Assembly (NCBI GenBank): GCA_017452945.1
Contig: JAFTLD010000076.1
Span: 1-31,136 of the forward strand
DNA: 31,136 bases
Source of the DNA: Clostridia bacterium
GTDB lineage: Bacteria > Bacillota_A > Clostridia > Oscillospirales > CAG-272
Reading direction: 5' to 3'
The notes beneath the pieces are model-generated. The model ran no database searches and was not told where the DNA came from. It saw only the letters and a list, made by a program, of their open reading frames with translations. A program made the position numbers and the translations under genes. Positions 5,855 through 23,248 of the stretch are shown piece by piece; positions within the stretch are counted from its first letter, which is position 1; every line of letters begins with the position of its first letter.

Positions 5855-8437
5855 TTAAGATTGTTTGGCCGCCAATTTCCGCACAAAGTCATTGATCTCG
5901 TTGCCCACCTGTGTGATCTCGTCCCAGAATTCCTTGGCGGTCATGCGCGAGATACCGTAGCTGACGGCAGAGAACTGCAGCAGTCTGTCGCCCGTGACCA
6001 CTCGGATGCTGTAATCGGGGCCCAGGTCGTGCATGATCTGCTCGATATACGCGTCCGCCGTCTGATCCTGCCTTGTGTACACCACGCGATAATCGTCGTG
6101 CAAAATCTCCGAGCCCGCACTGTCCTTGACCAAATACGCGTCAAACACCAGCAACACGTCTGTCTTGGTAAAGGCGTGATAATTGCTCATGACGTCCATC
6201 AGCGTCTCTCTTGCTTTCTCAAGGCTGTAATTGGCAATTTCCTGAAGTGCGTCTGCCGAATAGATCACGTTATAGCCGTCCACGATCAGCAAATTCTTGG
6301 GTGCCTTGATCGCTTTTGCTCGCTTGGGTGCTTTTCCGTTTGCCACCGTGATCTTGGGCTCGGTATATTTCTTTCTGCGGATCGGCCCAAATTCGCGCAG
6401 CATGATTGCCTCCAAGTCCTCATCGCTCAACTCATATTTTTTGGCAATCGATTTGACCTTAGGGATAGGAGCAACCGTACTTTGCGAAAGGGAAATGCCC
6501 GCATCCAGATGCTTGTGCGCATCCACCTCTTGCCACGGCACAACAATCCCCGCGCCATGTGCGCAGAACACCGAATGCGGTGTATTTTCAAGGTCGCTCT
6601 CGGGATCGTATCCCGCCTTTGCGACAATCTCGTCTGCATTGTGGCAGGACTCGTATCCGTCCGAGGTGCAGAACAGTCTGCCGTTCCCACGCGTGTAGGC
6701 AATGACCTCGCGCGTGTAATCGTGTAAGGTTGCCACGGGGCCGCGCCCTGTGATAGTGGTTATCTCTTCGCTGCTTGATTCAACTTCAAATTCTGCCGAT
6801 CTTGCCTGAAGATCACTCATGGCGCGTCCCGTCATGCCGTTGGGGATTTCCAATCTGAACTTGTAGTAAGGCTCCAGCAGGATGCATCCTGCCTTCATCA
6901 GGCCGTGTCGCACCGCGCGCAAGGTCGCCTCGCGGAAGTCACCGCCTTCGGTGTGCTTGAGGTGCGCCTTGCCTGCTACCAGTGTGATCTTTGTATCTGT
7001 CAGGGCAGCGCCGATGCTTGTGCCGCGATGTGTTTTTTCGTAAAGATTATAAAGGATCAGCCGCTGCCAGTTGAGATCGAGATTGTTTTCCGATACGCGC
7101 GAGTCAAAGATCAATCCGGTTCCCTTGGGCTGCGGCTCCATGAGCAGCTGCACCTCGGCATAATGGCGCAACGGCTCAAAATGTCCCACACCGATCGCCT
7201 TTGCAGCGATCTTTTCTTTATAAAGGATTCTGCCCGTATCCAACGTACATTCCACACCGAATCTCTCCGAGATCAGGCGTACAAGCAGCTCGATCTGCAC
7301 CTCGCCCATCAGCCGCGCTTCTATCTGACGCAATTCCTCGTTCCAGAAAAGGTGCAGGGAAGGCTCTTCCTCCTCAAACTCCTTGAGCTTGGGAAAATAT
7401 ACGGCTACGTCGCACTCGGGCGGCAGATTGATGCGGTAGGACAGAACCGGCTCCAGCACCGGCTTGCAGGTATCCGCCTCCATACCGAGCCCTTGTCCGA
7501 TATAGGTAGCCGAAAGCCCCAATACGGCACAGATCTCACCTGCGCCCACGCTGTCCACCTGCTCGAATTTATCACCCGAATAAAGTCTTAACTGACTGAC
7601 CTTTTCCGTGTATCTCTTGCCGTCGGCAGAAAGGTAGACAACCTCATCGCGTGCCGTCAGCGTGCCGCCCGTCAGCTTGATATACGTCAGACGCGTGTTT
7701 CCCGTGCGCGCGATCTTGTAAACCTTTGCACCAAAGCCGTGGTCATTGTAAACGGGGGAAAGGGTATAGCGATCCAAAACCTCCAAGAGAAAATCCACGC
7801 CCTGCATACGCAAAGCCGAGCCAAAAAGGCAAGGGAACAGCCGCCGCTGTGCAACCAGCGCAGCAATATCCTCGTTAGCAATTGGTTCCCCTGCAAGAAA
7901 GCTGTCCAAAAAGTCCTCGTGTAAAAGTGCAAGCCGCTCGTCAAGTACGCTTTTGTCCTCATCCTCGTAAAAGGCGCAGATGCGGGGGTCCAGCGTGCGG
8001 GTAAACTCGTCTGCCATTTCCTGCTTGAGTTTAATGGCTATGTCGGTCTTGTTGACAAAAATCAAGGTCGGTACGCTGTAATATGCCAACAGCTGCCAGA
8101 GCGTGCGCGTGTGATTCTGCACGCCATCCGTGCCGCTGATGACCAGAATGGCATAATCCAACAGAGCAAGCACGCGCTCCGCCTCTGCTGAAAAATCTAC
8201 GTGACCGGGGGTATCCAACAAAATAAAGTCGCATAGCTCGGTAGAAAACCGCGCCTGCTTGGAAAACACGGTGATCCCACGCTCGCGCTCAATCGCGTGC
8301 GTATCAAGATAGGTGTTCTTGTGATCCACGCGCCCCAGCGTCCGAATTCTGCCCGAAAGATAGAGCAGTGCTTCGGAAAGCGTGGTCTTGCCCGCATCTA
8401 CGTGCGCAAGGATGCCAATGGTCAGCTTTTTCTTCAT
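5855..8437 (-). CDS. TetM-like translation GTPase fused to a Rae1/YacP-like nuclease domain
   Basis: An 860-residue two-part protein. Residues 1 to about 640 form a ribosomal-protection-type GTPase related to TetM/TetO and EF-G: P-loop AHVDAGKT (11-18), switch motif ERERGIT (50-56), DTPGH (75-79), NKTD (129-132), then the beta-barrel, EF-G-like domains and a C-terminal EF-G-type domain with NGMTGRAMSDLQ (533-544). After a basic Lys/Ala/Pro linker (about 690-714) comes an NYN/PIN domain (715-860) resembling B. subtilis Rae1 (YacP): VDGYNVIY with Asp720, VFDA with Asp766, QTADAYIE with Asp795 and VTGD with Asp817, the four expected metal-binding acids. Plain ribosomal-protection proteins are about 640 residues, so the tail is an addition. 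Family knowledge: TetM frees the A site of tetracycline, and Rae1 cuts mRNA in the A site. A combined A-site function is inference; actual tetracycline resistance cannot be read from the sequence. AGGAG precedes the ATG by 8-9 bases. Confidence 0.9.
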   Translation of the reverse strand: MKKKLTIGILAHVDAGKTTLSEALLYLSGRIRTLGRVDHKNTYLDTHAIERERGITVFSKQARFSTELCDFILLDTPGHVDFSAEAERVLALLDYAILVISGTDGVQNHTRTLWQLLAYYSVPTLIFVNKTDIAIKLKQEMADEFTRTLDPRICAFYEDEDKSVLDERLALLHEDFLDSFLAGEPIANEDIAALVAQRRLFPCLFGSALRMQGVDFLLEVLDRYTLSPVYNDHGFGAKVYKIARTGNTRLTYIKLTGGTLTARDEVVYLSADGKRYTEKVSQLRLYSGDKFEQVDSVGAGEICAVLGLSATYIGQGLGMEADTCKPVLEPVLSYRINLPPECDVAVYFPKLKEFEEEEPSLHLFWNEELRQIEARLMGEVQIELLVRLISERFGVECTLDTGRILYKEKIAAKAIGVGHFEPLRHYAEVQLLMEPQPKGTGLIFDSRVSENNLDLNWQRLILYNLYEKTHRGTSIGAALTDTKITLVAGKAHLKHTEGGDFREATLRAVRHGLMKAGCILLEPYYKFRLEIPNGMTGRAMSDLQARSAEFEVESSSEEITTITGRGPVATLHDYTREVIAYTRGNGRLFCTSDGYESCHNADEIVAKAGYDPESDLENTPHSVFCAHGAGIVVPWQEVDAHKHLDAGISLSQSTVAPIPKVKSIAKKYELSDEDLEAIMLREFGPIRRKKYTEPKITVANGKAPKRAKAIKAPKNLLIVDGYNVIYSADALQEIANYSLEKARETLMDVMSNYHAFTKTDVLLVFDAYLVKDSAGSEILHDDYRVVYTRQDQTADAYIEQIMHDLGPDYSIRVVTGDRLLQFSAVSYGISRMTAKEFWDEITQVGNEINDFVRKLAAKQS

Positions 8438-8469
8438 GCCTGCTCTCCTTTCAAAGAATTACTCTAAAC

Positions 8470-8594: not shown

Positions 8595-9113
8595 ATGAAA
8601 AGAGCTTTTATTCGAATATATATTGTCGCGATCACATCAGTCTTACTTGCGCTGACGCTGTGCATGGGCACGTATGCTGCCGAGAGCGAACAGTTCTGTG
8701 AGCACACGTTCGGTGAATGGGAGCTGACGATCGTGCCGGACTGCACGCAAAAGGGCGAGGCCGTGCGCACCTGTGCCAAGTGCGGCTATAGCGAATCGCT
8801 TGTTGTCACGCGTCCCGGACACGTCCCCGGGGACTTTATCATGGATGCCGCTCCTCAGATCGGTGTTGCGGGTAGCATGAGCCGCTCTTGTACCGTTTGC
8901 GGGGAAATATTGCAAACCGAGGTGATCGCTCCGCTGCCCGAACCCGAGTCCGAGCCTGAACCGGAAACAGAAGCACCTACCTTGCCCGAAGAAAACTGGA
9001 TCGACGTTCCGCTGCCGCTTGCGCTGCTTGCCTTTATTTTGCCAAACTTGATCTTGGTCGCGGTGCTTGTTATTCGTGCGATCAGAAAACGCATTGAAAA
9101 GCTGAAGCTCTGA
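8595..9113 (+). CDS. Secreted, membrane-anchored Cys-rich protein
   Basis: A 172-residue protein with a signal peptide (hydrophobic residues about 6-25, cleavage likely after TYA). Next is a module with CEHTFGEWEL, DCTQKGEAVRTCAKCGYSES and SCTVCGEI, whose Cys pairs resemble small surface modules common in clostridial exported proteins. An acidic Pro/Glu stretch follows (PEPESEPEPETEAP), then a C-terminal membrane helix (about 140-160) and a basic tail (RAIRKRIEKLKL). The layout says it is displayed outside the cell. The Cys pairs might bind metal or form disulphides. The function is unknown. It stands alone between its own promoter and terminator. Confidence 0.8.
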   Translation: MKRAFIRIYIVAITSVLLALTLCMGTYAAESEQFCEHTFGEWELTIVPDCTQKGEAVRTCAKCGYSESLVVTRPGHVPGDFIMDAAPQIGVAGSMSRSCTVCGEILQTEVIAPLPEPESEPEPETEAPTLPEENWIDVPLPLALLAFILPNLILVAVLVIRAIRKRIEKLKL

Positions 9114-12221: not shown

Positions 12222-12761
12222 ATGAAGAAAAGAAAGTTTATTGTGGTTGCATTCTTGCTTGTTGCCGTTGCATTGTTGGGCGTAGGCTACGCTGCATTGA
12301 CCGACACCCTGACCATCATCGGTAACGCACACATCGACATTGGTGAGGCAAACGAAACCTTTGATGAGAAGATTTACTTCTCAAAAGCAGAAGCCACTTC
12401 CTCTACCGGTACCGGTTCTACAGATGACGTAGCAAGCTGCACCACAGATGACGCTACCTTTACTGCAAACAAACTGGCTGTAGTAAATGAAAAGTCTGTG
12501 TTTACTTTCACTATCAAAAACGATAGTAACGTAGATGCTACGATTTCTGTTAACGACACTAAACTGTCCGGTGCTGAAAACCCCAGCAACTCCAACACTG
12601 ATAAGTTCACCGTTGAGTATTCGTATCCGGATGGTATGACTGTTGCAAAGAATGGCGGTACTATTACGGTTGTAGTAACCGTAACCGTTAAGGAGCCCGT
12701 TACCGCTGCTACCAGCGCAACCTTCGGTATCGAGCTGACTGCTACTTCCATAGATCCGTAA
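12222..12761 (+). CDS. TasA/camelysin-like surface fibre protein
   Basis: A 179-residue exported protein. The SipW-type signal is clear: a basic MKKRK, a hydrophobic core, then GVGYAALTDTLTI (residues 21-33), with cleavage expected near YAA. The mature part begins with ALTDTLTIIGNAHIDIGEANE and is Thr/Ser/Val-rich and beta-strand-like, with VFTFTIKNDSNVDATISVND typical of the TasA/CalY family, ending SATFGIELTATSIDP. TasA of B. subtilis builds biofilm fibres and is processed by SipW. A fibre role here is inference from that family and from the signal peptidase next door. AAGGAAG precedes the ATG. It is first in a four-gene operon, where the structural protein is expected to be most expressed. 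Confidence 0.85.
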   Translation: MKKRKFIVVAFLLVAVALLGVGYAALTDTLTIIGNAHIDIGEANETFDEKIYFSKAEATSSTGTGSTDDVASCTTDDATFTANKLAVVNEKSVFTFTIKNDSNVDATISVNDTKLSGAENPSNSNTDKFTVEYSYPDGMTVAKNGGTITVVVTVTVKEPVTAATSATFGIELTATSIDP

Positions 12762-12824
12762 TTGGTTTGCCAAAAAAGCCAAACAAAGATTTGGGTGATT
12801 AACTGCTAAGAAAGGAGAACGGCG

Positions 12825-13961
12825 ATGACGCTTGACAGAAAAAAGCTATACATCATTTCTTCTGTAACGCTCGCCGTGCTCCTGATCACTCTGTTTGCAC
12901 CAATGGGCAGCGGCAGAATTATTGCAGCAATCTTGTTGCTGCCCTTGGCGATCATCACCTGTGCGATGATCAAGAAACGAGTAGCGCTTTCCATGAACGC
13001 AAAGCAGGTTCTTTTGCTGATCAGTGTGATCGGTCTGCTTTACTTTGTGTTTTATTACGTCTCCGGTGTTCGCTTCGGTTTTACAAAAACAGGATACGGT
13101 ATCAATAAACCTGACATTTTGCTTTTGTACATCATTCCCATCGCTGTTATTATTGTTTGTAACGAGCTGATCCGTCACGTTCTATGCGTGCAGAGCGAAA
13201 AGTACGGTAGCGTATTTGCGTTCTTTATCTCGTTGTGTACAGATGTGATCATTTGTGCAACTATCCCAGCAGTTACAAACATGTCGACCTTCATGGACGT
13301 TGTCGGTTTGACGCTTGTCCCGGGGCTGATGAGCAATTTGCTCTTTAACTATTTGACCGCAAGATACGGTATATGGCCCAATATCGTATACAAAGGATTT
13401 ACAGTTTGGGCGTTCTATCTGATCCCTTACGGATCGGGTATTTCGAATTCGCTTTTGGGATTCGTCAATTTGATCCTTCCCATTTTCGTTTTCCTGTTTA
13501 TCGATTCTTTTTACGAAAAGAGAAGACGGTATGCACTGGGGAACACCTCAATGACCTGGCGGGTGTTTTCCGGTGTGCTCACGGCAATTGCCGTTGTTAT
13601 TATGCTCGGCACTGTGATGCTCATTTCCAACCAGTTTCGCTACGGCTTGCTGGTAGTCGCAACCCCCAGTATGACGGGTGAACTCAATAAGGGTGACGCT
13701 GCCATATTCGAAAAATACGAGGACCAACCTATCGTGGAAGGTCAAGTCATTGTTTTTGAAAAAGACGGCTCTATGATCATTCACAGAGTCGCTGATATAC
13801 AAACGGTTAACGGTACGACCAGGTATTTCACCAAGGGCGATGCCAATGAAGACCTCGATGCGGGCTTCATTCAACGATCGGATATCGTAGGATTGGTGAA
13901 TTACAAGGTACCGTATATAGGCTACCCAACTCTTTGGATGCGTAGCCTGTTCAAACGATAA
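12825..13961 (+). CDS. SipW-type signal peptidase fused to a polytopic membrane domain
   Basis: A 378-residue protein. Residues 1 to about 228 contain some six to seven membrane helices (for example 9-25, 33-49, 60-79, 97-113, 129-150, 157-176, 207-227). Another helix (about 248-268) leads into a type I signal peptidase domain of the SipW/ER (S26B) kind: VVATPSMTGEL with Ser282, MIIHRV with His320 and TKGDANEDLD (336-345). Histidine instead of lysine as the second catalytic residue is what marks this kind. B. subtilis SipW is about 190 residues with only two helices, so the large membrane domain is extra. It probably cleaves the two YAALTDTL-bearing proteins in the same operon. GGAG lies 8 bases before the ATG. 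Confidence 0.9.
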   Translation: MTLDRKKLYIISSVTLAVLLITLFAPMGSGRIIAAILLLPLAIITCAMIKKRVALSMNAKQVLLLISVIGLLYFVFYYVSGVRFGFTKTGYGINKPDILLLYIIPIAVIIVCNELIRHVLCVQSEKYGSVFAFFISLCTDVIICATIPAVTNMSTFMDVVGLTLVPGLMSNLLFNYLTARYGIWPNIVYKGFTVWAFYLIPYGSGISNSLLGFVNLILPIFVFLFIDSFYEKRRRYALGNTSMTWRVFSGVLTAIAVVIMLGTVMLISNQFRYGLLVVATPSMTGELNKGDAAIFEKYEDQPIVEGQVIVFEKDGSMIIHRVADIQTVNGTTRYFTKGDANEDLDAGFIQRSDIVGLVNYKVPYIGYPTLWMRSLFKR

Positions 13962-13979
13962 AGATAAGGAGGTAAAGGC

Positions 13980-15551
13980 ATGTCCGAGGCTGAAAGATTA
14001 CGGCGACAAGAATATAAGCGCAACAGAAAAAAATGGATCATAATTCAGTCCATCGCTCTTGCAGTAGTATTGGCGATCGCTCTGACCTGTTTTGTCGTCT
14101 ATGACAGAATGAACCGCACCTACTATATCGAATATACGGAAAACGGTGATGTTGATTACAAGGTATACCTCAAGGACAATCAGTTCTTCGAAGAAAATTA
14201 TCTTGGCAAGGATCAGTCTTACGTAGCAAGCTTGATCAAGGAGATCACAGCAGATTTTTCTTACGATCTGAAGATGGATGCATCCTCCGTTGGTTTTGAT
14301 TATACTTACAGAGTCGATGCGCAGTTGATCATTGCCAATAAAGATACGGGTGACCATATTTTTGCCCCTGTCTATGAGATCGTGCCCCAAACGCAGGCAA
14401 CCGTTGAAAACGGCAATCTGTTGAACATCGATAAGAGTGTTGCGATCGACTACAATAAGTACAACGCACTTGCAAACGAATTTATCAGTGCCTATGGTCT
14501 TAAGAGCACGACAAGCACGCTGGTTGTTACCATGACGGTTGATGTACTCAGCCGTTGCGATGAGTTTGAGGACAATAACGAGAATTCGTATTTTGTGGCA
14601 CTGAACATTCCGCTCACCGAGGAGAATTTCAGCATTTTCTCAACCTCCAGTACAGAGGAAGAGAACAAGGTGCTGGCTTGCAGCGGCGCTGTAAATCAGA
14701 ATCTCTTTTTGACTCTTGCGATCGTCATGCTGTCTATTGCAGTGCTGCTTGCAGCGCTCTTGATTGCATTTGTCTATATCACCAGAAATGAAGACGTCAA
14801 CTACACCAACAAGGTCCGTAAGCTGGTCTCTGCTTACCGCTCCTTTATCCAACAAATGGAGGGTGAGTTTGACACAACGGGATATCAGATCGTACCGATC
14901 AAAACTTTTAATGAAATGCTGGGTATCAGAGATACCATTCAGTCTCCGATCCTGATGTTTGAGAATTACGATCAGACCATGACTGAATTTGTTATTCCTA
15001 CCAATACCAAAATTCTGTATACTTTTACCATCAAGGTTGATAACTATGATGAGATCTACGCAGAACCCGAGGAAGAGCCGATTGAGGAAGAACCGATCGC
15101 AGAGGAGCCCGAAGAGGAAGTCGTGATCGTCAGTGAAGACGTACCTGAGGAGGAGATCGAGGAAGCGTTGGCAACGCCTGACGTTGTACTGGAAGAAATC
15201 AACTACGTTGAGGATGACGATGAGGACTATGAGGGAACTGAGGAAGAACCCGGTATCGAAGTCGTTGGTGTCGTTTGGCCTGAAAGAGCAAAGCGCAACA
15301 AGGTATATCGTTATGATCCTAACGGTGAGCAACTTGAAAAGGGCGATATGGTTCTTGTTCCGACCAGAGACGTGCATAAGAACAGAGAGGTGATCCGAAA
15401 GGCAGCCATTGCGCACGGGAACCATAAAATAGACCCTGCGTTACATCCTTACACGCTGAAAAAGATCATTGGTGTTATCAGACATCATGCGGATGCGGTT
15501 TTGGCACCCATGCCCAATAACACCGAAGAGAATCAAGAGAACAAAGAATAA
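13980..15551 (+). CDS. DUF5305 membrane protein with acidic linker and cytoplasmic domain
   Basis: A 523-residue protein. Basic N-terminus, membrane helix at about 19-41, then an extracytoplasmic DUF5305-like domain (about 48-235) recognisable from VDYKVYLKDN, LIIANKDTGDHIF and NLLNIDKSVAIDYNKYN. A second helix follows (about 241-267), then a cytoplasmic part. The tail has a helical segment (268-350), a very acidic linker (about 356-425) and a small domain (about 428-508) with KVYRYDPNGEQLEKGDMVLVPT. DUF5305 proteins often sit beside SipW-type signal peptidases in Clostridia and archaea; their role is unknown. GGAGG is 5 bases upstream of the ATG. A scaffold or anchor for fibre assembly is one inference. 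Confidence 0.8.
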   Translation: MSEAERLRRQEYKRNRKKWIIIQSIALAVVLAIALTCFVVYDRMNRTYYIEYTENGDVDYKVYLKDNQFFEENYLGKDQSYVASLIKEITADFSYDLKMDASSVGFDYTYRVDAQLIIANKDTGDHIFAPVYEIVPQTQATVENGNLLNIDKSVAIDYNKYNALANEFISAYGLKSTTSTLVVTMTVDVLSRCDEFEDNNENSYFVALNIPLTEENFSIFSTSSTEEENKVLACSGAVNQNLFLTLAIVMLSIAVLLAALLIAFVYITRNEDVNYTNKVRKLVSAYRSFIQQMEGEFDTTGYQIVPIKTFNEMLGIRDTIQSPILMFENYDQTMTEFVIPTNTKILYTFTIKVDNYDEIYAEPEEEPIEEEPIAEEPEEEVVIVSEDVPEEEIEEALATPDVVLEEINYVEDDDEDYEGTEEEPGIEVVGVVWPERAKRNKVYRYDPNGEQLEKGDMVLVPTRDVHKNREVIRKAAIAHGNHKIDPALHPYTLKKIIGVIRHHADAVLAPMPNNTEENQENKE

Positions 15552-15577
15552 TTTCATAAAGAAGGGAGAGTGTGGTT

Positions 15578-17032
15578 ATGACAAAGAGAACGATCGTTGT
15601 GCTTTGCGCCGCGCTCTCTTTTGCTTTTGTGTTTTGTTTCCTTTCTATGGGATATGCAGCCCTGACGGATACGTTGAAGATATCAGGGTCTGCAGAAATA
15701 GAGGTTCCGTACGGACTTTTCATCACTAAGATCGAGCCCCAAAATTCTGCAACAAGACTGGACGTCACAGATATCAGCTTTGCGCAGTATTCCACAACGG
15801 TGGATTGTGCGTTGAGCAAATCAAGCAACAATCAATCCGGCTATATCACATATGAAATAACGGTATTCAATAACACCACACGCGAATATGCGTATCGAGA
15901 CCTGTACTATCAGACCTCGGTTAACGGATATCATAACAACCTGATCTCCAAGAGCAATGCCAACAACAAAATCGGTGTTGTGACCAACTTTCCCGAGGGG
16001 AAAATCGTGCCTGCAGGAGAGGAAATGACCTTCGAGGTCACGTATACGTTAGGCTCGTCCCGAAGCTCTTTGCCGTCAGGCACCACGCATAAAACGCTGA
16101 TCAATTATCAGTTTGGTATCAACGTAGATTCAGAGGCGGATGCGGTGGACGTTGTTCATGAAAAGTTTTTGGATATTCTGAACACGACTTCTACGTACGA
16201 AACTCTGGTGGATGTTCTGGATAACAAGTTTGATGGCAGACAGGAATGGACGTCCAACTACGTTGGAAACGTTGGCAGCGCAACGTCAGATGACTCTATG
16301 GCAGTCAATACGTTGTTTGCGGGACAGCTGCAGTTGATCATCAATGGAGAAACCAAAAAGGCTACTGTTTTGATCAAGCACGAAAACCTGGATAACAACA
16401 CCCAAACAGGTGATGATTACGTTGCAACAAATACAAGCAATGGCGGAGTCTTCCGAGGTTACGGATGCGAAATGACGCTGTATTTGACTACGGACGATCT
16501 ATCGGAGCGAAACGGCTGGGCGCCTGTTTACGTTTCGGTCTTTACCTGTGACAGGGACGAGAACGGGAATATCATCAGCGATTGGTATCTGATCGGTGAG
16601 ACCTATAAGGGAACTGCCAACATCGTTGGCTATAACGGCGAAGAGGGCGGCACTGGTTCGTTCGTGACCGATAACTGGATCGCAGACGCGGCAACGTATC
16701 GTGTGACCGATGATTATTCCTATCAAGTCGCCTCAGGAACAACTATCAAGACGCTGACGCAGACGGTTGATCATGCAATGATTGCAGAATTCCAACAGCT
16801 GCTAACGGATGCGAAGACTATGATAGAGGATACGACTTATGCAGGTACAGGTATTACTGTGGTAGAAGAGGCATATGAGAGGGCAGCTCCTTTCTACACG
16901 CTTGATGCAAACGGGAATCCTGTGGCAAATGCAAATGTGACCAGAGCGCAGCTTTGTCCCATTGTACGCGATCTTGAAACCAATCTCAGTGTAGCACAGG
17001 ACAAGATCGACGAGATCACGGGAAACAATTGA
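15578..17032 (+). CDS. Large TasA-like exported protein with C-terminal helical module
   Basis: A 484-residue exported protein. The signal is the same kind as in the first gene of the operon: hydrophobic core, then MGYAALTDTLKISG (about residues 24-37). A TasA-like beta domain follows (to about 180; VDCALSKSSNNQSGYITYEITVFNN). A middle region of about 200 residues has beta-rich sequence (GQLQLIINGETKKATVLIK). The C-terminus (about 400-484) is helical, with LLTDAKTMI and TNLSVAQDKIDEI, resembling FIVAR-type modules of surface proteins. The ATG at 15578 has GGGAG 9 bases upstream; the GTG at 15572 is too close to it. It may be a minor or tip subunit, which is inference. Confidence 0.78.
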   Translation: MTKRTIVVLCAALSFAFVFCFLSMGYAALTDTLKISGSAEIEVPYGLFITKIEPQNSATRLDVTDISFAQYSTTVDCALSKSSNNQSGYITYEITVFNNTTREYAYRDLYYQTSVNGYHNNLISKSNANNKIGVVTNFPEGKIVPAGEEMTFEVTYTLGSSRSSLPSGTTHKTLINYQFGINVDSEADAVDVVHEKFLDILNTTSTYETLVDVLDNKFDGRQEWTSNYVGNVGSATSDDSMAVNTLFAGQLQLIINGETKKATVLIKHENLDNNTQTGDDYVATNTSNGGVFRGYGCEMTLYLTTDDLSERNGWAPVYVSVFTCDRDENGNIISDWYLIGETYKGTANIVGYNGEEGGTGSFVTDNWIADAATYRVTDDYSYQVASGTTIKTLTQTVDHAMIAEFQQLLTDAKTMIEDTTYAGTGITVVEEAYERAAPFYTLDANGNPVANANVTRAQLCPIVRDLETNLSVAQDKIDEITGNN

Positions 17033-18854: not shown

Positions 18855-19415
18855 ATGCAAGACCAAGAAATTATTGATTTGTACAACAGGCGCGATGAAC
18901 AGGCTATTGTACAGACCGAGACCAAATACGGCTCGTACTGTATGAGCATCGCGCAAAACATCCTGCAAAACATGCAGGATAGCGAGGAATGTGTCAACGA
19001 CACGTGGCTGCACACATGGAATTCCATTCCGCCGGCGCAGCCTAATAATCTGCGCACGTATTTGGGCAAGATCACGCGCAATCTGTCCTTCAACCGTTAT
19101 GAGATGCGCAACCGCCAAAAACGGGGCGGGGGAGAGGTGATCGTGGCGCTTGATGAGATCGGTGAGGTTGCTGCCCCCGATGCAGAGCTTGCTTCCCAGC
19201 TGGAAAGAGAGGATTTTGCACGCATTCTCAATGCCTTTTTGTGGAGCTTGCCCGAGCGCGATTGCAGCATCTTTATCCGCCGCTATTATTACGTGGAGAG
19301 CGTGGATGAGATTGCGGAGCGTTATGCAATGAGCAAGGCAGCTGTGTTCAAAAGCCTTTCCCGCGCACGCATGAAATTGCGTCAAGCCTTGGAACAGGAG
19401 GGCTACACGGTATGA
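18855..19415 (+). CDS. ECF-type RNA polymerase sigma factor (module 1)
   Basis: A 186-residue sigma-70 family protein. Region 2 spans about residues 22-85 (YGSYCMSIAQNIL, DSEECVNDTWLHTWNSIPP, LRTYLGKITRNLSFNRYE). Region 4 spans about 125-180 (LNAFLWSLPERDCSIFIRRYYYVESVDEIAERYAMSKAAVFKSLSRARMKLRQ) with the HTH near 150-172. It has no region 1 or 3, as expected for the ECF group. AGGAG lies before the ATG. Its stop overlaps the start of the LRR membrane protein by 4 bases (ATGA), so both are made together. It is about 75 percent identical by eye to the sigma of module 2. Confidence 0.93.
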   Translation: MQDQEIIDLYNRRDEQAIVQTETKYGSYCMSIAQNILQNMQDSEECVNDTWLHTWNSIPPAQPNNLRTYLGKITRNLSFNRYEMRNRQKRGGGEVIVALDEIGEVAAPDAELASQLEREDFARILNAFLWSLPERDCSIFIRRYYYVESVDEIAERYAMSKAAVFKSLSRARMKLRQALEQEGYTV

Positions 19416-21409
19416 AAAATCTCCCTTTGTTGAAATGGATGGAGGACATTGATCCGGTTCTGATCGAGCGTGCAGACCGATACGTTTCCAAGCACCGCAG
19501 CCGCACGCTGCGCACGATTCTGATCGCAGCCGCAGCTGCTTTGCTGATCCTCACAATGCTGAGCGCGGTATCTTTGATGATGCTGGATTCTTATGCTGAG
19601 CAGAATTATCCCGAATACGACGGTACCGTGCTGCATGCGCTTGATTTCGTGCTGACGCAGGACCAAAACCCCGTGGCAGAGGCACTTGGCGAGCAAAACA
19701 GAGCGTCCTTGCACACGCTGTTCAATGCATTGCGCGGTATCGAATCCGAGCCTGAGCCAGAGCCCGAGCAAACGACAGGCTCCGAGGGCTTGCTCTATGA
19801 GCGATACAGCAACGGCACCTGCACAGTCACGGGCATGGGGGATTGTAAGGACTTGCACGTGATCATCCCGAAAAAATCACCGGACGGTGATACGGTTACG
19901 GGCATTGCGATGGGCGCGTTTGAAAATTGCGTCAGTATTACGCGCGTCACCGTTCCCGAAACCGTGACCGTGATCCACGAGGGCGCGTTCCGCGGCTGCT
20001 CCAAGCTGACCGAGATCAATATCCCGGACAGCGTGAGTGTGATCGGAGCCGAAGCCTTTAAGAACTGCTGGAAACTGGAAAAGCTGCATATTCCGGATAG
20101 CGTTGTCAGCATCGGATCCAACGTCACGGGTATGTGTATCCTGCTGGAGAACATTACGGTCGATGAGGAAAACCTTATGTACTACAGCCAAGGCAACTGC
20201 CTGATCGAAACAGGCAGCGGAACGCTGATCGCAGGCTGCGAGAGCAGTGTGATACCCGAGGGCGTGACAAGCATTGCACCGTATGCGTTCTACTGCATGT
20301 CGGGCTTGCGCACGATCGTCATTCCCGAGGGCGTGGAAAGCATCGGAGAGGCTGCGTTCCTTGGCTGCTCTGCGCTGCGCGAGGTATCGCTGCCCACTAC
20401 GTTACAAAGCATTGATTACAAAGCGTTTTCGGAATGTACAACGCTGCGCACCGTCAACGTATCCGAGGGCCTTGTCGAAATCGCTCCCTATGCCTTTGAA
20501 AAGTGCGAGCGCTTGGCAAATATCACCCTGCCAAGCACGCTGCAAAGCCTTGGCCAAGGCGCATTTACGGATTGCGCTGCCTTGACCGAGATCGATATTC
20601 CGCAGGGAATGACGCTGATCGATATCGGCGTATTTCAGGGCTGCTCCTCGCTTATTCGTGTGGGGATCCCGGATAGCGTGATACTCATCAACAGCTATGC
20701 GTTCCGCCAATGCGAGTCGCTTGCATCGATCGATCTGCCGGAAGGCTTGAAAAGCATTGGGTACAGCGCGTTTTACGATTGTGACGGCTTGACCGAGATC
20801 GCGTTTCCAAGCTCTATGACAAGCATTCCCGGCAGTGCGTTTGCCGATGCAGATGGCCTGACATATCTTACTATCCCCGACAGCATTTTTGAAATCGGCG
20901 TGTGTGCTTTTGCTTCTTGTGACGCTTTGCAGTCGGTATATATTCCCGCAAGCGTGACAAATATTGGCGACTCTGCCTTTCGTGCTTGCAGAGCGCTGAC
21001 CGAGTTTGTGGTCGCACCCGAAAATCCAAAATATAAGAGCGAAGGGAACTGCCTGTATCACGTTGAGTTTGGCAGGCTGATGTTTGCGAATTCTTACAGC
21101 GTCATCCCGGATGGTTTGACGATCATCGGCGAAGACGTATTCAACTACTCTGATGTGAAGGATGTGATTCTCCCAAGCGGCATTACGACGATTGAGAGCA
21201 ATGCGTTCAATGAGGCAAGCGATATGAAAAGCATCGTCATTCCCGCAAGTGTGACAAGCATTGGCGATCATGCGTTTTATTTTTGTTTCTCTTTGAAGCA
21301 CGTGTATTACACGGGCACAGAGCAAGAGTGGGAGCAGATCGATTTCGGTGAAGGCAACGAGGATCTGCTGGAGGCAACCGTACATTTTGAATACGTGCCT
21401 GAGGAATAA
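19412..21409 (+). CDS. Membrane-anchored BspA-type leucine-rich repeat protein, probable anti-sigma sensor (module 1)
   Basis: A 665-residue protein in three parts. Residues 1-34 are cytoplasmic and carry WMEDIDPVLIERA, a motif of the kind seen in proteins encoded after clostridial ECF sigmas. A membrane helix follows at about 35-57. Outside lie a conserved stalk (YPEYDGTVLHALDFVLTQDQN), an acidic linker (SEPEPEPEQ), and about twenty BspA/LRR_5 repeats of some 23 residues (pattern IPDSVxxIGxxAFxxCxxLxxIxIP) from about 150 to 635. It ends with YYTGTEQEWEQIDFG. Coupling to the sigma gene suggests that the head holds the sigma factor and the repeats sense an outside ligand. That role is inference; the ligand is unknown. 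Confidence 0.88.
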   Translation: MKNLPLLKWMEDIDPVLIERADRYVSKHRSRTLRTILIAAAAALLILTMLSAVSLMMLDSYAEQNYPEYDGTVLHALDFVLTQDQNPVAEALGEQNRASLHTLFNALRGIESEPEPEPEQTTGSEGLLYERYSNGTCTVTGMGDCKDLHVIIPKKSPDGDTVTGIAMGAFENCVSITRVTVPETVTVIHEGAFRGCSKLTEINIPDSVSVIGAEAFKNCWKLEKLHIPDSVVSIGSNVTGMCILLENITVDEENLMYYSQGNCLIETGSGTLIAGCESSVIPEGVTSIAPYAFYCMSGLRTIVIPEGVESIGEAAFLGCSALREVSLPTTLQSIDYKAFSECTTLRTVNVSEGLVEIAPYAFEKCERLANITLPSTLQSLGQGAFTDCAALTEIDIPQGMTLIDIGVFQGCSSLIRVGIPDSVILINSYAFRQCESLASIDLPEGLKSIGYSAFYDCDGLTEIAFPSSMTSIPGSAFADADGLTYLTIPDSIFEIGVCAFASCDALQSVYIPASVTNIGDSAFRACRALTEFVVAPENPKYKSEGNCLYHVEFGRLMFANSYSVIPDGLTIIGEDVFNYSDVKDVILPSGITTIESNAFNEASDMKSIVIPASVTSIGDHAFYFCFSLKHVYYTGTEQEWEQIDFGEGNEDLLEATVHFEYVPEE

Positions 21410-21511
21410 GAAGCGTATTGCCCGAAAATAAAAAAGTTTGTAAAATTGTGTCAGTCTTCCGCCTGTTTGTTGTGAATATAGGTAAGGAGCAATAAACCCA
21501 AGGAGGAAGAC

Positions 21512-21577
21512 ATGGAAACAAAAATGCAAAAAATACCAAAGAAAGGGGATGCTTATGCAAGACGAGCAGATCATTGA
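21512..21577 (+). CDS. Possible 21-residue leader peptide before sigma 2
   Basis: AAGGAGGAAGAC directly precedes an ATG at 21512. The frame encodes METKMQKIPKKGDAYARRAD then His and stops at 21575-21577, 23 bases inside the sigma gene. The ribosome site is the best in this region. It may be a coupling leader, or simply a false site. There is no homology to judge by. Confidence 0.3.
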   Translation: METKMQKIPKKGDAYARRADH

Positions 21578-22115
21578 TCTTTACAATCAAAGAAAAGAGC
21601 AGGCAATTGTGGAAACAGACGCCAAATACGGCCCGTATTGCATGAGCATTGCCCAAAATATTCTTGAAAACATGCAGGATAGCGAGGAATGCGTCAACGA
21701 CACCTGGCTGCAAACCTGGAACTCGATCCCGCCCGCACATCCGCTGGATCTGCGCACTTATCTTGGCAAGATCACGCGCAATCTCTCGATCAATCGCTTG
21801 AAATACCGTATGCGTGAAAAGCGCGGAGGTGGTCAAGCCTTGCTTGCCTTGGATGAGATCGCTGAGATAGCCGCTCCCGACTCGGATATTGCGTCACAGA
21901 TGGCCAAACAGGATTTTACGCGTATACTCAACGCATTTTTATGGAGCTTGCCCGAGCGTGATTGCAATATTTTCATACGCCGCTACTATTTTGTGGACAG
22001 CGTGCAAGATATTGCCAATCGTTACCGCATCAGCCGCGATGCGGTGCTGAAAATTCTCTCCCGTGCCAGAAAAAAGCTCAGAGCCGGCTTGGAAGAGGAG
22101 GGATATATCGTATGA
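21555..22115 (+). CDS. ECF-type RNA polymerase sigma factor (module 2)
   Basis: A 186-residue paralogue of the sigma in module 1, matching along its whole length: KYGPYCMSIAQNILENMQDSEECVNDTW in region 2 and FLWSLPERDCNIFIRRYYFVDSVQDIANRY in region 4. The start at 21555 (MQDEQIID) is chosen because it aligns with the first paralogue and has GGGG 7 bases upstream; the ATG at 21549 has none. The end overlaps the next gene by 4 bases. Residues differ in the recognition helix (RISRDAVLKILS against AMSKAAVFKSLS), so the two factors may read different promoters. I saw no convincing promoter in 21410-21511. Confidence 0.92.
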   Translation: MQDEQIIDLYNQRKEQAIVETDAKYGPYCMSIAQNILENMQDSEECVNDTWLQTWNSIPPAHPLDLRTYLGKITRNLSINRLKYRMREKRGGGQALLALDEIAEIAAPDSDIASQMAKQDFTRILNAFLWSLPERDCNIFIRRYYFVDSVQDIANRYRISRDAVLKILSRARKKLRAGLEEEGYIV

Positions 22116-23248
22116 ATCAAATAACTGTGTTTGAATGGATGAGCGAGATCGATCCCATCCTGATCGCGCGTGCAGCTGCTCCCGTAAAGACAAAGCGCAG
22201 CTCCGGTATTCGCACTGTAGTGATCATTGCGGCAGTGCTTGCAGCGCTGATGCTTGTCGGAACACTTGCCTCGGCCGCCATGTTGGATTCCTACGTAGAG
22301 CAACGATACGAGGACTACGACGGTACGCTCTTACACGCGCTGGATATTGTGCTGACGCAGGACGATAATGTTGTTTCTTCCTTGCTGCTTGAACAGAACA
22401 AGCAAGCCCTGCACGCGCTGTTTGACGCTTTGCGCAGAGCGGACCGGGAGCAGGGAGAGGAGCAGGAAACAAAGCCGCTTGTTCCGTCTGAGGGCCTGGA
22501 ATTCAAGGAGTATTTTCCCGGCTCGGGGACTTGCCTGGTTACAGGTATCGGAACGTGTACGGACACCGACGTCGTCATTCCGCAAACCAATCCCGACGGC
22601 TACGAGGTGATCGGTATTGCAAAAAATGCGTTCCAAGGCTGCGCTGAGATTAAAAGCATTACCACGCCTGACGGCATGCAGTTTATCGAGGAAATGGCCT
22701 TTGCAGGCTGCACCACCCTGGAAAGTGTGACGATTGCTGACAGCGTCACACAGCTGAGCACCATGCTGTTTGTCAATTGCGAAAGCCTGAAGACCGTCAA
22801 GCTGCCGAGCGGTATAACTAATATCAACTGGCAGCTGTTCAGCCATGCAACGGGCCTTGAAAAGATTATCATTCCCGATACCGTCGAATCGATCGATCCG
22901 TATGCTTTTGAGCATTGTACGTCATTGAAAAGCATTGAAATTCCGCCAAGCGTCCAATTCATCGGACACGGAGCATTCAGAAATTGCGAAAACCTTACGT
23001 TTATCATACTTCCCGAAGGGATTACCGAGATCAAGATGGAAACCTTTAATCAATGTAACAGCATGACGGGTATCGTAATTCCAAAAAGTGTTACTGTAAT
23101 AGAACAACAGGCTTTTTGGGTGTGCAAAAATCTCAAGGACATTTACTATACGGGAACACAGGAAGAGTGGGACGCAATTTCGGTAGGATCACTCAACTAC
23201 GAACTTGATTCTGTTACCGTGCATTTTCCGGAAGAATCGGCAGAGTGA
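22112..23248 (+). CDS. Membrane-anchored BspA-type leucine-rich repeat protein (module 2)
   Basis: A 378-residue shorter paralogue of the LRR protein in module 1. Cytoplasmic head with EWMSEIDPILIARA (residues 8-21), membrane helix at about 34-57, stalk YEDYDGTLLHALDIVLTQDDN, an acidic linker (EQGEEQETK), then about nine LRR_5 repeats (from about 150 to 355; for example IPDTVESIDPYAFEHCTSLKS). It ends with YYTGTQEEWDAISVG. The head and stalk are conserved with module 1 while the repeats differ in number and sequence, as expected if the sensor part has diverged. The start at 22112 has GAGG upstream and overlaps the sigma stop. Confidence 0.88.
   Translation: MNQITVFEWMSEIDPILIARAAAPVKTKRSSGIRTVVIIAAVLAALMLVGTLASAAMLDSYVEQRYEDYDGTLLHALDIVLTQDDNVVSSLLLEQNKQALHALFDALRRADREQGEEQETKPLVPSEGLEFKEYFPGSGTCLVTGIGTCTDTDVVIPQTNPDGYEVIGIAKNAFQGCAEIKSITTPDGMQFIEEMAFAGCTTLESVTIADSVTQLSTMLFVNCESLKTVKLPSGITNINWQLFSHATGLEKIIIPDTVESIDPYAFEHCTSLKSIEIPPSVQFIGHGAFRNCENLTFIILPEGITEIKMETFNQCNSMTGIVIPKSVTVIEQQAFWVCKNLKDIYYTGTQEEWDAISVGSLNYELDSVTVHFPEESAE

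Follow-up and report, generated by a model that had tools for sequence, protein, structure and literature searches.

The gene studied here has two kinds of described relatives. In PMC6613710 and PMC12320835, Rae1 (YacP) is characterized as an A-site nuclease whose target is the mRNA within the A site of the ribosome. In the available portion of Atkinson 2015 (PMC4342817), the Tet proteins of ten Clostridiales species are reported to have acquired a YacP-like NYN domain, which may be a new resistance mechanism. The gene lies in a 31,136-nucleotide stretch of a Clostridia bacterium (the window; contig JAFTLD010000076.1, assembly GCA_017452945.1). It encodes a Tet-like GTPase and a YacP-like NYN domain in one protein and is a further member of the published architecture, from the same bacterial group (Clostridiales). 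Atkinson 2015 files such fusions as Tet proteins and suggests a resistance role; that portion of the paper contains neither a replacement of Rae1 nor the differences at the domain IV tip and the C-terminus described below. Mutual exclusion with a separate YacP, an empty rae1 site and a shared Cys/His extension are likewise not found there, and none of them is claimed here as unpublished. A literature search on Rae1/YacP with Tet or GTPase fusions, in which few of the other papers listed were opened, found a description in Atkinson 2015 alone. The available portion of PMC8161019 does not mention NYN or Rae1. The comparisons below make it somewhat probable that the fusion is the clostridial form of Rae1, a nuclease joined to a ribosome-dependent GTPase that would bring it to stalled ribosomes.

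The 860-residue open reading frame occupies positions 5855–8437 on the minus strand of the window. It starts with ATG and is preceded by a ribosome-binding site, AAGGAGA, at 8444–8450 (minus strand). The frame consists of an EF-G/Tet-type GTPase (residues 1–645), a linker and a Rae1-type NYN_YacP nuclease domain. An earlier sequence-only reading had described one frame joining the two halves, with the strand omitted; Pfam and the relatives agree with it. PF05991 is carried by all 120 relatives listed (query counted) out of 7995, so the fusion is neither a chance nor an assembly join.

The NYN_YacP domain covers residues 717–855 (5873–6289, minus strand) and scores 133 bits against a cut-off of 24.6 (E-value 1.3e-38). 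In a PDB sequence search, this part matches Rae1 of Bacillus subtilis (5mq8/5mq9) with an E-value of 2.1e-18. The same chains are the best fold matches of the predicted structure (E-values 3.3e-11 to 5.5e-10, template modelling score (TM) 0.80). The four acids that the sequence-only reading had placed at Rae1 positions are borne out in the alignment with 5mq8/5mq9: Asp720 (6278–6280), Asp766 (6140–6142), Asp795 (6053–6055) and Asp817 (5987–5989), all on the minus strand, align with Rae1 D7, D53, D81 and D104 (numbering counted on the printed alignment). All 92 aligned fused proteins have D720, N723, D766 and D795, and 91 of them have D817. These five residues are kept in all 20 stand-alone NYN proteins. 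The absence of a profile match, or of the acids across homologues, had been named as evidence that would count against a nuclease of this type; the profile is matched and the acids are retained. The domain shares the NYN fold, the four acids and N10 with B. subtilis Rae1. It differs from Rae1 in being the C-terminal domain of a GTPase, in being encoded elsewhere and in its identity of approximately 30%. Residue 728 (6254–6256) is Ala in the window protein, while Trp is found there in 89 of the 92 fused proteins and 19 of the 20 stand-alone domains.

The fusion and the stand-alone protein do not co-occur in the genomes sampled. The class sample contains 243 genomes that belong to the same class as G030, the source genome of L057 (Mediterraneibacter massiliensis), and NYN_YacP is present in 161 of them. 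In 84 genomes it lies in an open reading frame of at least 600 residues. A further five genomes contain fragmented fusions, which brings the fused genomes to 89 of 243. In the fragmented cases, a GTPase of the fusion's subfamily is present on the same or another contig; in G212 and G196 the parts are on different contigs and their joining is assumed. Stand-alone NYN_YacP, in frames of 160–216 residues, is present in 72 of the 243 genomes. No genome of the class sample contains both a fused and a separate NYN_YacP above the cut-off of 24.6 bits, and three fused genomes contain a second match of approximately 21 bits, below it. This exclusion has a naive Fisher p of 1.9e-18, uncorrected for kinship.

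In another set of 40 fused genomes, taken from 80 loci that are the best 80 of 588, 39 contain exactly one NYN_YacP match, which is the fusion. The remaining genome, G005, has no match; a contig end interrupts its fusion. A further 12 of 12 fused genomes are without a separate YacP. When the sets are pooled and G030 is counted once, a separate YacP above the cut-off is present in 0 of 139 fused genomes, including G001–G004, the nearest relatives of the window that were tested. The genome search suggested in the sequence-only reading, for the same domain pair and for a separate yacP gene, thus finds the pair to be common, and no separate gene above the cut-off wherever the pair is present in these sets. 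Unfused GTPases of the subfamily are present in 15 of the 243 genomes; 10 of these contain a stand-alone NYN, five contain no NYN and none contains the fusion. All three further genomes with an unfused GTPase contain a stand-alone NYN. G243, which has GTPase fragments and no NYN, is placed in neither group.

The position of the stand-alone gene was compared in 30 fused and 20 stand-alone genomes, hand-picked by NYN state before the region was viewed, over rlmB and 1.5 kb on each side. One Clostridioides difficile protein each served as the reference for NYN, sigH and mrnC, the last being the name given here to the C. difficile "ribonuclease III domain-containing protein". In the C. difficile record, which has a stand-alone NYN, the gene order is cysS-mrnC-thyX-rlmB-NYN-sigH-tuf. 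NYN follows rlmB in 15 of the 20 stand-alone genomes, where sigH starts 598–786 bases past the rlmB match. NYN follows rlmB in none of the 30 fused genomes. Directly behind rlmB, 19 of these have sigH and no NYN (22–682 bases), and mrnC is also seen in 14 of the 19. In ten fused cases for which sigH identity was recorded, seven have 70–76% and three (G063, G030 and G116) have 42–47%; the "sigH" of these three may be another sigma factor. Because genomes with the fusion have no NYN between rlmB and sigH, the fusion and B. subtilis Rae1 probably share a gene function. The simplest history, as read from these gene orders, would be a loss of rae1 from its original site after the fusion had taken over its job, or a move of rae1 into the fusion. 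A mobile Rae1, with stand-alone NYN genes on C. difficile plasmids, was considered and dropped; the one record opened has a chromosome-like gene order.

In the GTPase trees, a single clade (99, starred, in one tree and 95, starred, in the other) unites the fused proteins with those of the Lactobacillaceae and is sister to clostridial unfused proteins. The trees include 41 of the 92 fused rows in the first and 27 of the 92 in the second, from which the long branches L204 and L219 are omitted. In both trees, the ribosomal protection protein (RPP) rows are split off by a branch of 100 (starred). In the conservation alignment, the RPP rows number 31 after the removal of L005 (contig end), and they are assigned by length, coverage and identity rather than by tested function. 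The trees thus place the GTPase half in the sister clade of the tetracycline RPP. The Lactobacillaceae form a clade (100, starred) nested within the fused clade at 88 (unstarred). Because of this nesting, a single fusion followed by loss of the NYN domain in the Lactobacillaceae is likely. The Lactobacillaceae member P0139 has 45–56% identity to 18 fused proteins and 40–43% identity to three clostridial unfused proteins. For the GTPase half, the approximately unbiased test does not reject one clade of all fused proteins (p 0.532; 55 rows). In a phylum sample of 299 genomes (21 matches), the Lactobacillaceae-type GTPase was not found.

The GTPase half has the domain order of an EF-G-type factor. 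The G domain (residues 4–225; 7763–8428) matches GTP_EFTU with an E-value of 9.7e-47 and retains the P-loop, switch I, switch II and (N/T/S)KxD motifs; EF-G_D2 follows at residues 245–314. Domain III (residues 329–400; 7238–7453) scores 26.0 bits with EFG_III, slightly below the cut-off of 27, and lies inside the region that matches the TetM fold. Domain IV (residues 420–516; 6890–7180) and domain V (residues 520–600; 6638–6880) match EFG_IV and EFG_C. All of these features are on the minus strand. With its GTP-binding motifs, the switch II His and domains II–V, the half belongs to the EF-G type. The conservation alignment of 92 fused proteins is made up of 78 of the 80 loci and 14 other fused proteins; L006 and L220 (broken by stops) and the partial loci L161–L163, L166 and L170 were dropped. 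In this alignment, the residues of the P-loop and of switch II vary very little, and the switch II His is present in 91 of 92. Both enzymes look active, because the catalytic residues of both halves are conserved.

The closest solved chains by sequence for residues 3–597 are TetO and TetM, and residues 2–637 of the predicted structure match the fold of TetM (3j9y). The structure prediction of the two halves that had been proposed earlier therefore recovers a TetM-type fold for one and a Rae1 fold for the other. The sequence-only reading had called this half a complete TetM-like GTPase. A complete EF-G/Tet-type GTPase is present, and "TetM-like" is overstated. Identity to Tet(M)/Tet(O) is approximately 30%. 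The tet_protect profile (NCBIfam) gives 387.3 bits against a cut-off of 775, about half, and the NCBIfam Tet(M) profile gives 213.8 bits against 1420. The fusion shares EF-G-like domains, GTPase motifs and fold with Tet(M)/Tet(O) and differs from them in its separate clade, its loop III and its C-terminus.

At the tip of domain IV, loop III (residues 491–502; 6932–6967, minus strand) reads AHLKHTEGGDFR where TetM has YYSPVSTPADFR. There is no length change in the alignment with TetM, and the fusion lacks a loop of the TetM type. H492 is present in 91, K494 in 89, H495 in 92 and T496 in 92 of the 92 fused proteins, and in 16, 16, 17 and 17 of 17 unfused relatives, respectively. H492 aligns with the tip His of EF-G. 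The RPP-binned rows mostly have Y-Y-S-P-V-S at the tip, and a Pro at the position of TetM P509 is found in 24 of the 31 and in no fused protein. The TetM-type C-terminal helix is also absent, and a different extension takes its place (residues 598–645; 6503–6646, minus strand). C598 is present in 92, C625 in 90 and H643 in 90 of the 92 fused proteins, and all three are present in 17 of 17 unfused relatives. Columns 599–645 are gapped in all 31 RPP rows. The extension alone has no match in a PDB sequence search up to an E-value of 1. That C598, C625 and H643 form a metal site is only an idea suggested by the residues.

The unfused relatives are annotated as "translation factor GTPase family protein" in Lactobacillaceae and Clostridia (approximately 640–730 residues). 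The 17 unfused rows share the tip H-x-K-H-T-x-G-G-D-F-R and the Cys/His extension with the fusion; unlike the fusion, they are without NYN and end 3–14 residues from H643 (H643 counted). In Ligilactobacillus salivarius pMP118 (L176, 5399–7917), the unfused GTPase adjoins rpsN (S14) and, on the opposite strand, a small gene product annotated as "putative metal homeostasis protein". Together with the conserved Cys/His C-terminus, these neighbours hint at a link to metal stress.

The linker (residues 646–716; 6290–6502, minus strand) is variable and predicted to be flexible. Between positions 640 and 717 it ranges from 66 to 117 residues in the 92 fused proteins. The predicted local distance difference test score is below 50 at residues 652–667 and 687–710, with a helix at 672–683. 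A short motif, DxELxxI(F/M)xR(T/E)(Y/F)G (residues 672–691; 6365–6424, minus strand), includes this predicted helix. A loose pattern, written post hoc, fits 90 of 93 sequences, and a stricter pattern pair fits 53 of 92. The motif is conserved amid a variable linker and is a possible docking element.

EF-G and TetM insert domain IV into the A site. Because domain IV and Rae1 would occupy the same A site, the two halves should act in turn rather than together. In the pose of EF-G and TetM, the GTPase half would dock on ribosomes whose A site is vacant or blocked. Its domain IV tip may then probe or clear the A site, followed by GTP hydrolysis and withdrawal. The nuclease, tethered by the linker, would enter the same A site and cut the codon there, and the resulting ribosome would be fit for tmRNA-type rescue. 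GTP hydrolysis would be the switch between the turns of the GTPase and the nuclease. We infer ribosome binding, cleavage and the order of action from sequence and predicted structure; an order of GTPase first and nuclease second would fit the long linker.

A fusion that does the work of Rae1 is the reading we prefer, because the fusion takes the place of Rae1 in the fused genomes examined. Several points weigh against it. Many of the genomes are drafts, and the exclusion counts rest on relatives rather than on the window's own genome. At the rlmB site, 11 of the 30 fused genomes have neither sigH nor NYN beside rlmB (one at a contig end) and are uninformative, and in G231 and G062 the distance from rlmB to sigH matches that of genomes with rae1. 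The fused proteins do not group as one clade in the NYN tree, although such a clade is not rejected (p 0.296). The Lactobacillaceae GTPase is without an NYN domain in 120 of 120 among the matches listed. Co-occurrence of the unfused GTPase with Rae1 is unclear (10 of 15, compared with 72 of 154 non-fused genomes overall). The predicted structure does not define the mutual placement of the two halves (predicted template modelling score 0.60). In B. subtilis, Rae1 functions as a separate protein with no GTPase partner of this kind, so the GTPase need not be required for cutting.

In two alternatives, both unlikely, the halves are coupled differently. The fusion may be mainly a tether or an expression link, with the GTPase having a separate role of its own (for example, in stress) and the Rae1 half working as it does when alone. 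The long, variable linker counts in favour of this, as do the unfused relatives in Lactobacillaceae and other Clostridia, from which it follows that the GTPase has an independent function. On the other hand, none of the 139 fused genomes keeps a separate Rae1 and the linker motif is conserved, which argues that the joined state is used. It is similarly improbable that the GTPase acts after the cut, with NYN cleaving in the A site and the GTPase then splitting or translocating the ribosome on the cut mRNA, as in recycling by EF-G. The tip KHTEGGDF is unlike the EF-G tip sequence, and the fold neighbours show no function that would point to this order.

The alternative suggested by Atkinson 2015 is a Tet-resistance protein with an added nuclease, in which the GTPase would eject tetracycline and NYN would add RNase-based resistance. 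TetO and TetM are the closest solved chains, and some sources label relatives as TetM, TetW, TetO or TetS. Approximately 6 of the 31 RPP-binned rows carry His at both position 492 and position 495, so the tip is no clean divide. Loop III is unchanged in length, and according to the available portion of PMC4750697, TetM with S508A/P509A/V510A can remain active; the tip difference alone therefore does not exclude tetracycline protection. Against resistance, the tet_protect score is far below its cut-off, the branch of 100 divides the RPP rows from the fusion clade, and the C-terminal extension differs where the same portion of PMC4750697 calls the TetM C-terminal helix important. The fusion is common (89 of 243 genomes) and without a conserved neighbourhood across 78 loci. 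In at least seven genomes, an RPP-like gene is present in addition to the fusion (five best candidates per genome scored), and loss of stand-alone Rae1 would be unexpected for a drug-specific protein. We consider the resistance alternative the least probable of the three.

A mobile resistance gene was also considered and rejected; of the matching records, 2 of 1215 from plasmids and 2 of 102 from phages cover at least 80% of the query. A near full-length relative of the fusion is present in each of two human-faecal "Bacteriophage sp." records that carry no annotation, MT835563.1 (5421–7964) and MT835514.1 (15279–17759).

Three results, namely the exclusion of a separate YacP in 139 fused genomes, the empty rae1 site and a GTPase outside the RPP clade with another tip and C-terminus, favour a housekeeping nuclease over a tetracycline-resistance protein. 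The sequence-only reading had proposed a factor for rescue or mRNA surveillance and not simply a resistance protein, and the same results favour this. As a whole that reading is supported in part, delivery of the nuclease to drug-blocked ribosomes being a putative role.

The neighbourhood of the gene gave no clue to an operon. Across the 78 fusion loci, the largest cluster of conserved neighbours is found at 24 loci, mostly distant from the gene, and the next at 11; an operon was therefore rejected as a clue to function. In the window, a divergent 172-residue gene lies beside the fusion (8595–9113); judged by eye, its start resembles a signal peptide, and Pfam gives no match. Positions 12222–17032 contain a cluster of a 179-residue orphan, a protein that weakly matches S26 signal peptidase, a DUF5305 protein and a 486-residue protein without a Pfam match. 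Positions 18855–23248 contain two extracytoplasmic function (ECF) sigma factor genes, each followed by a gene for a BspA-type leucine-rich-repeat protein. An Rfam scan of the window at gathering scores found no match.

A broader proposal is that a GTP-gated A-site nuclease is present across a whole branch of the Clostridia, where it would sense stalls through an EF-G-like domain IV and replace free Rae1, as a kind of rescue factor not known from the model organisms. We hold this tentatively, at somewhat less than even chances. If the fusion does the work of Rae1, some "tetracycline resistance" genes of gut Clostridia would be housekeeping mRNA-quality factors, which would affect resistome counts. 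The fusion would also offer a natural test of the timing of A-site mRNA cleavage, the ribosome-docking GTPase and the nuclease being one chain.
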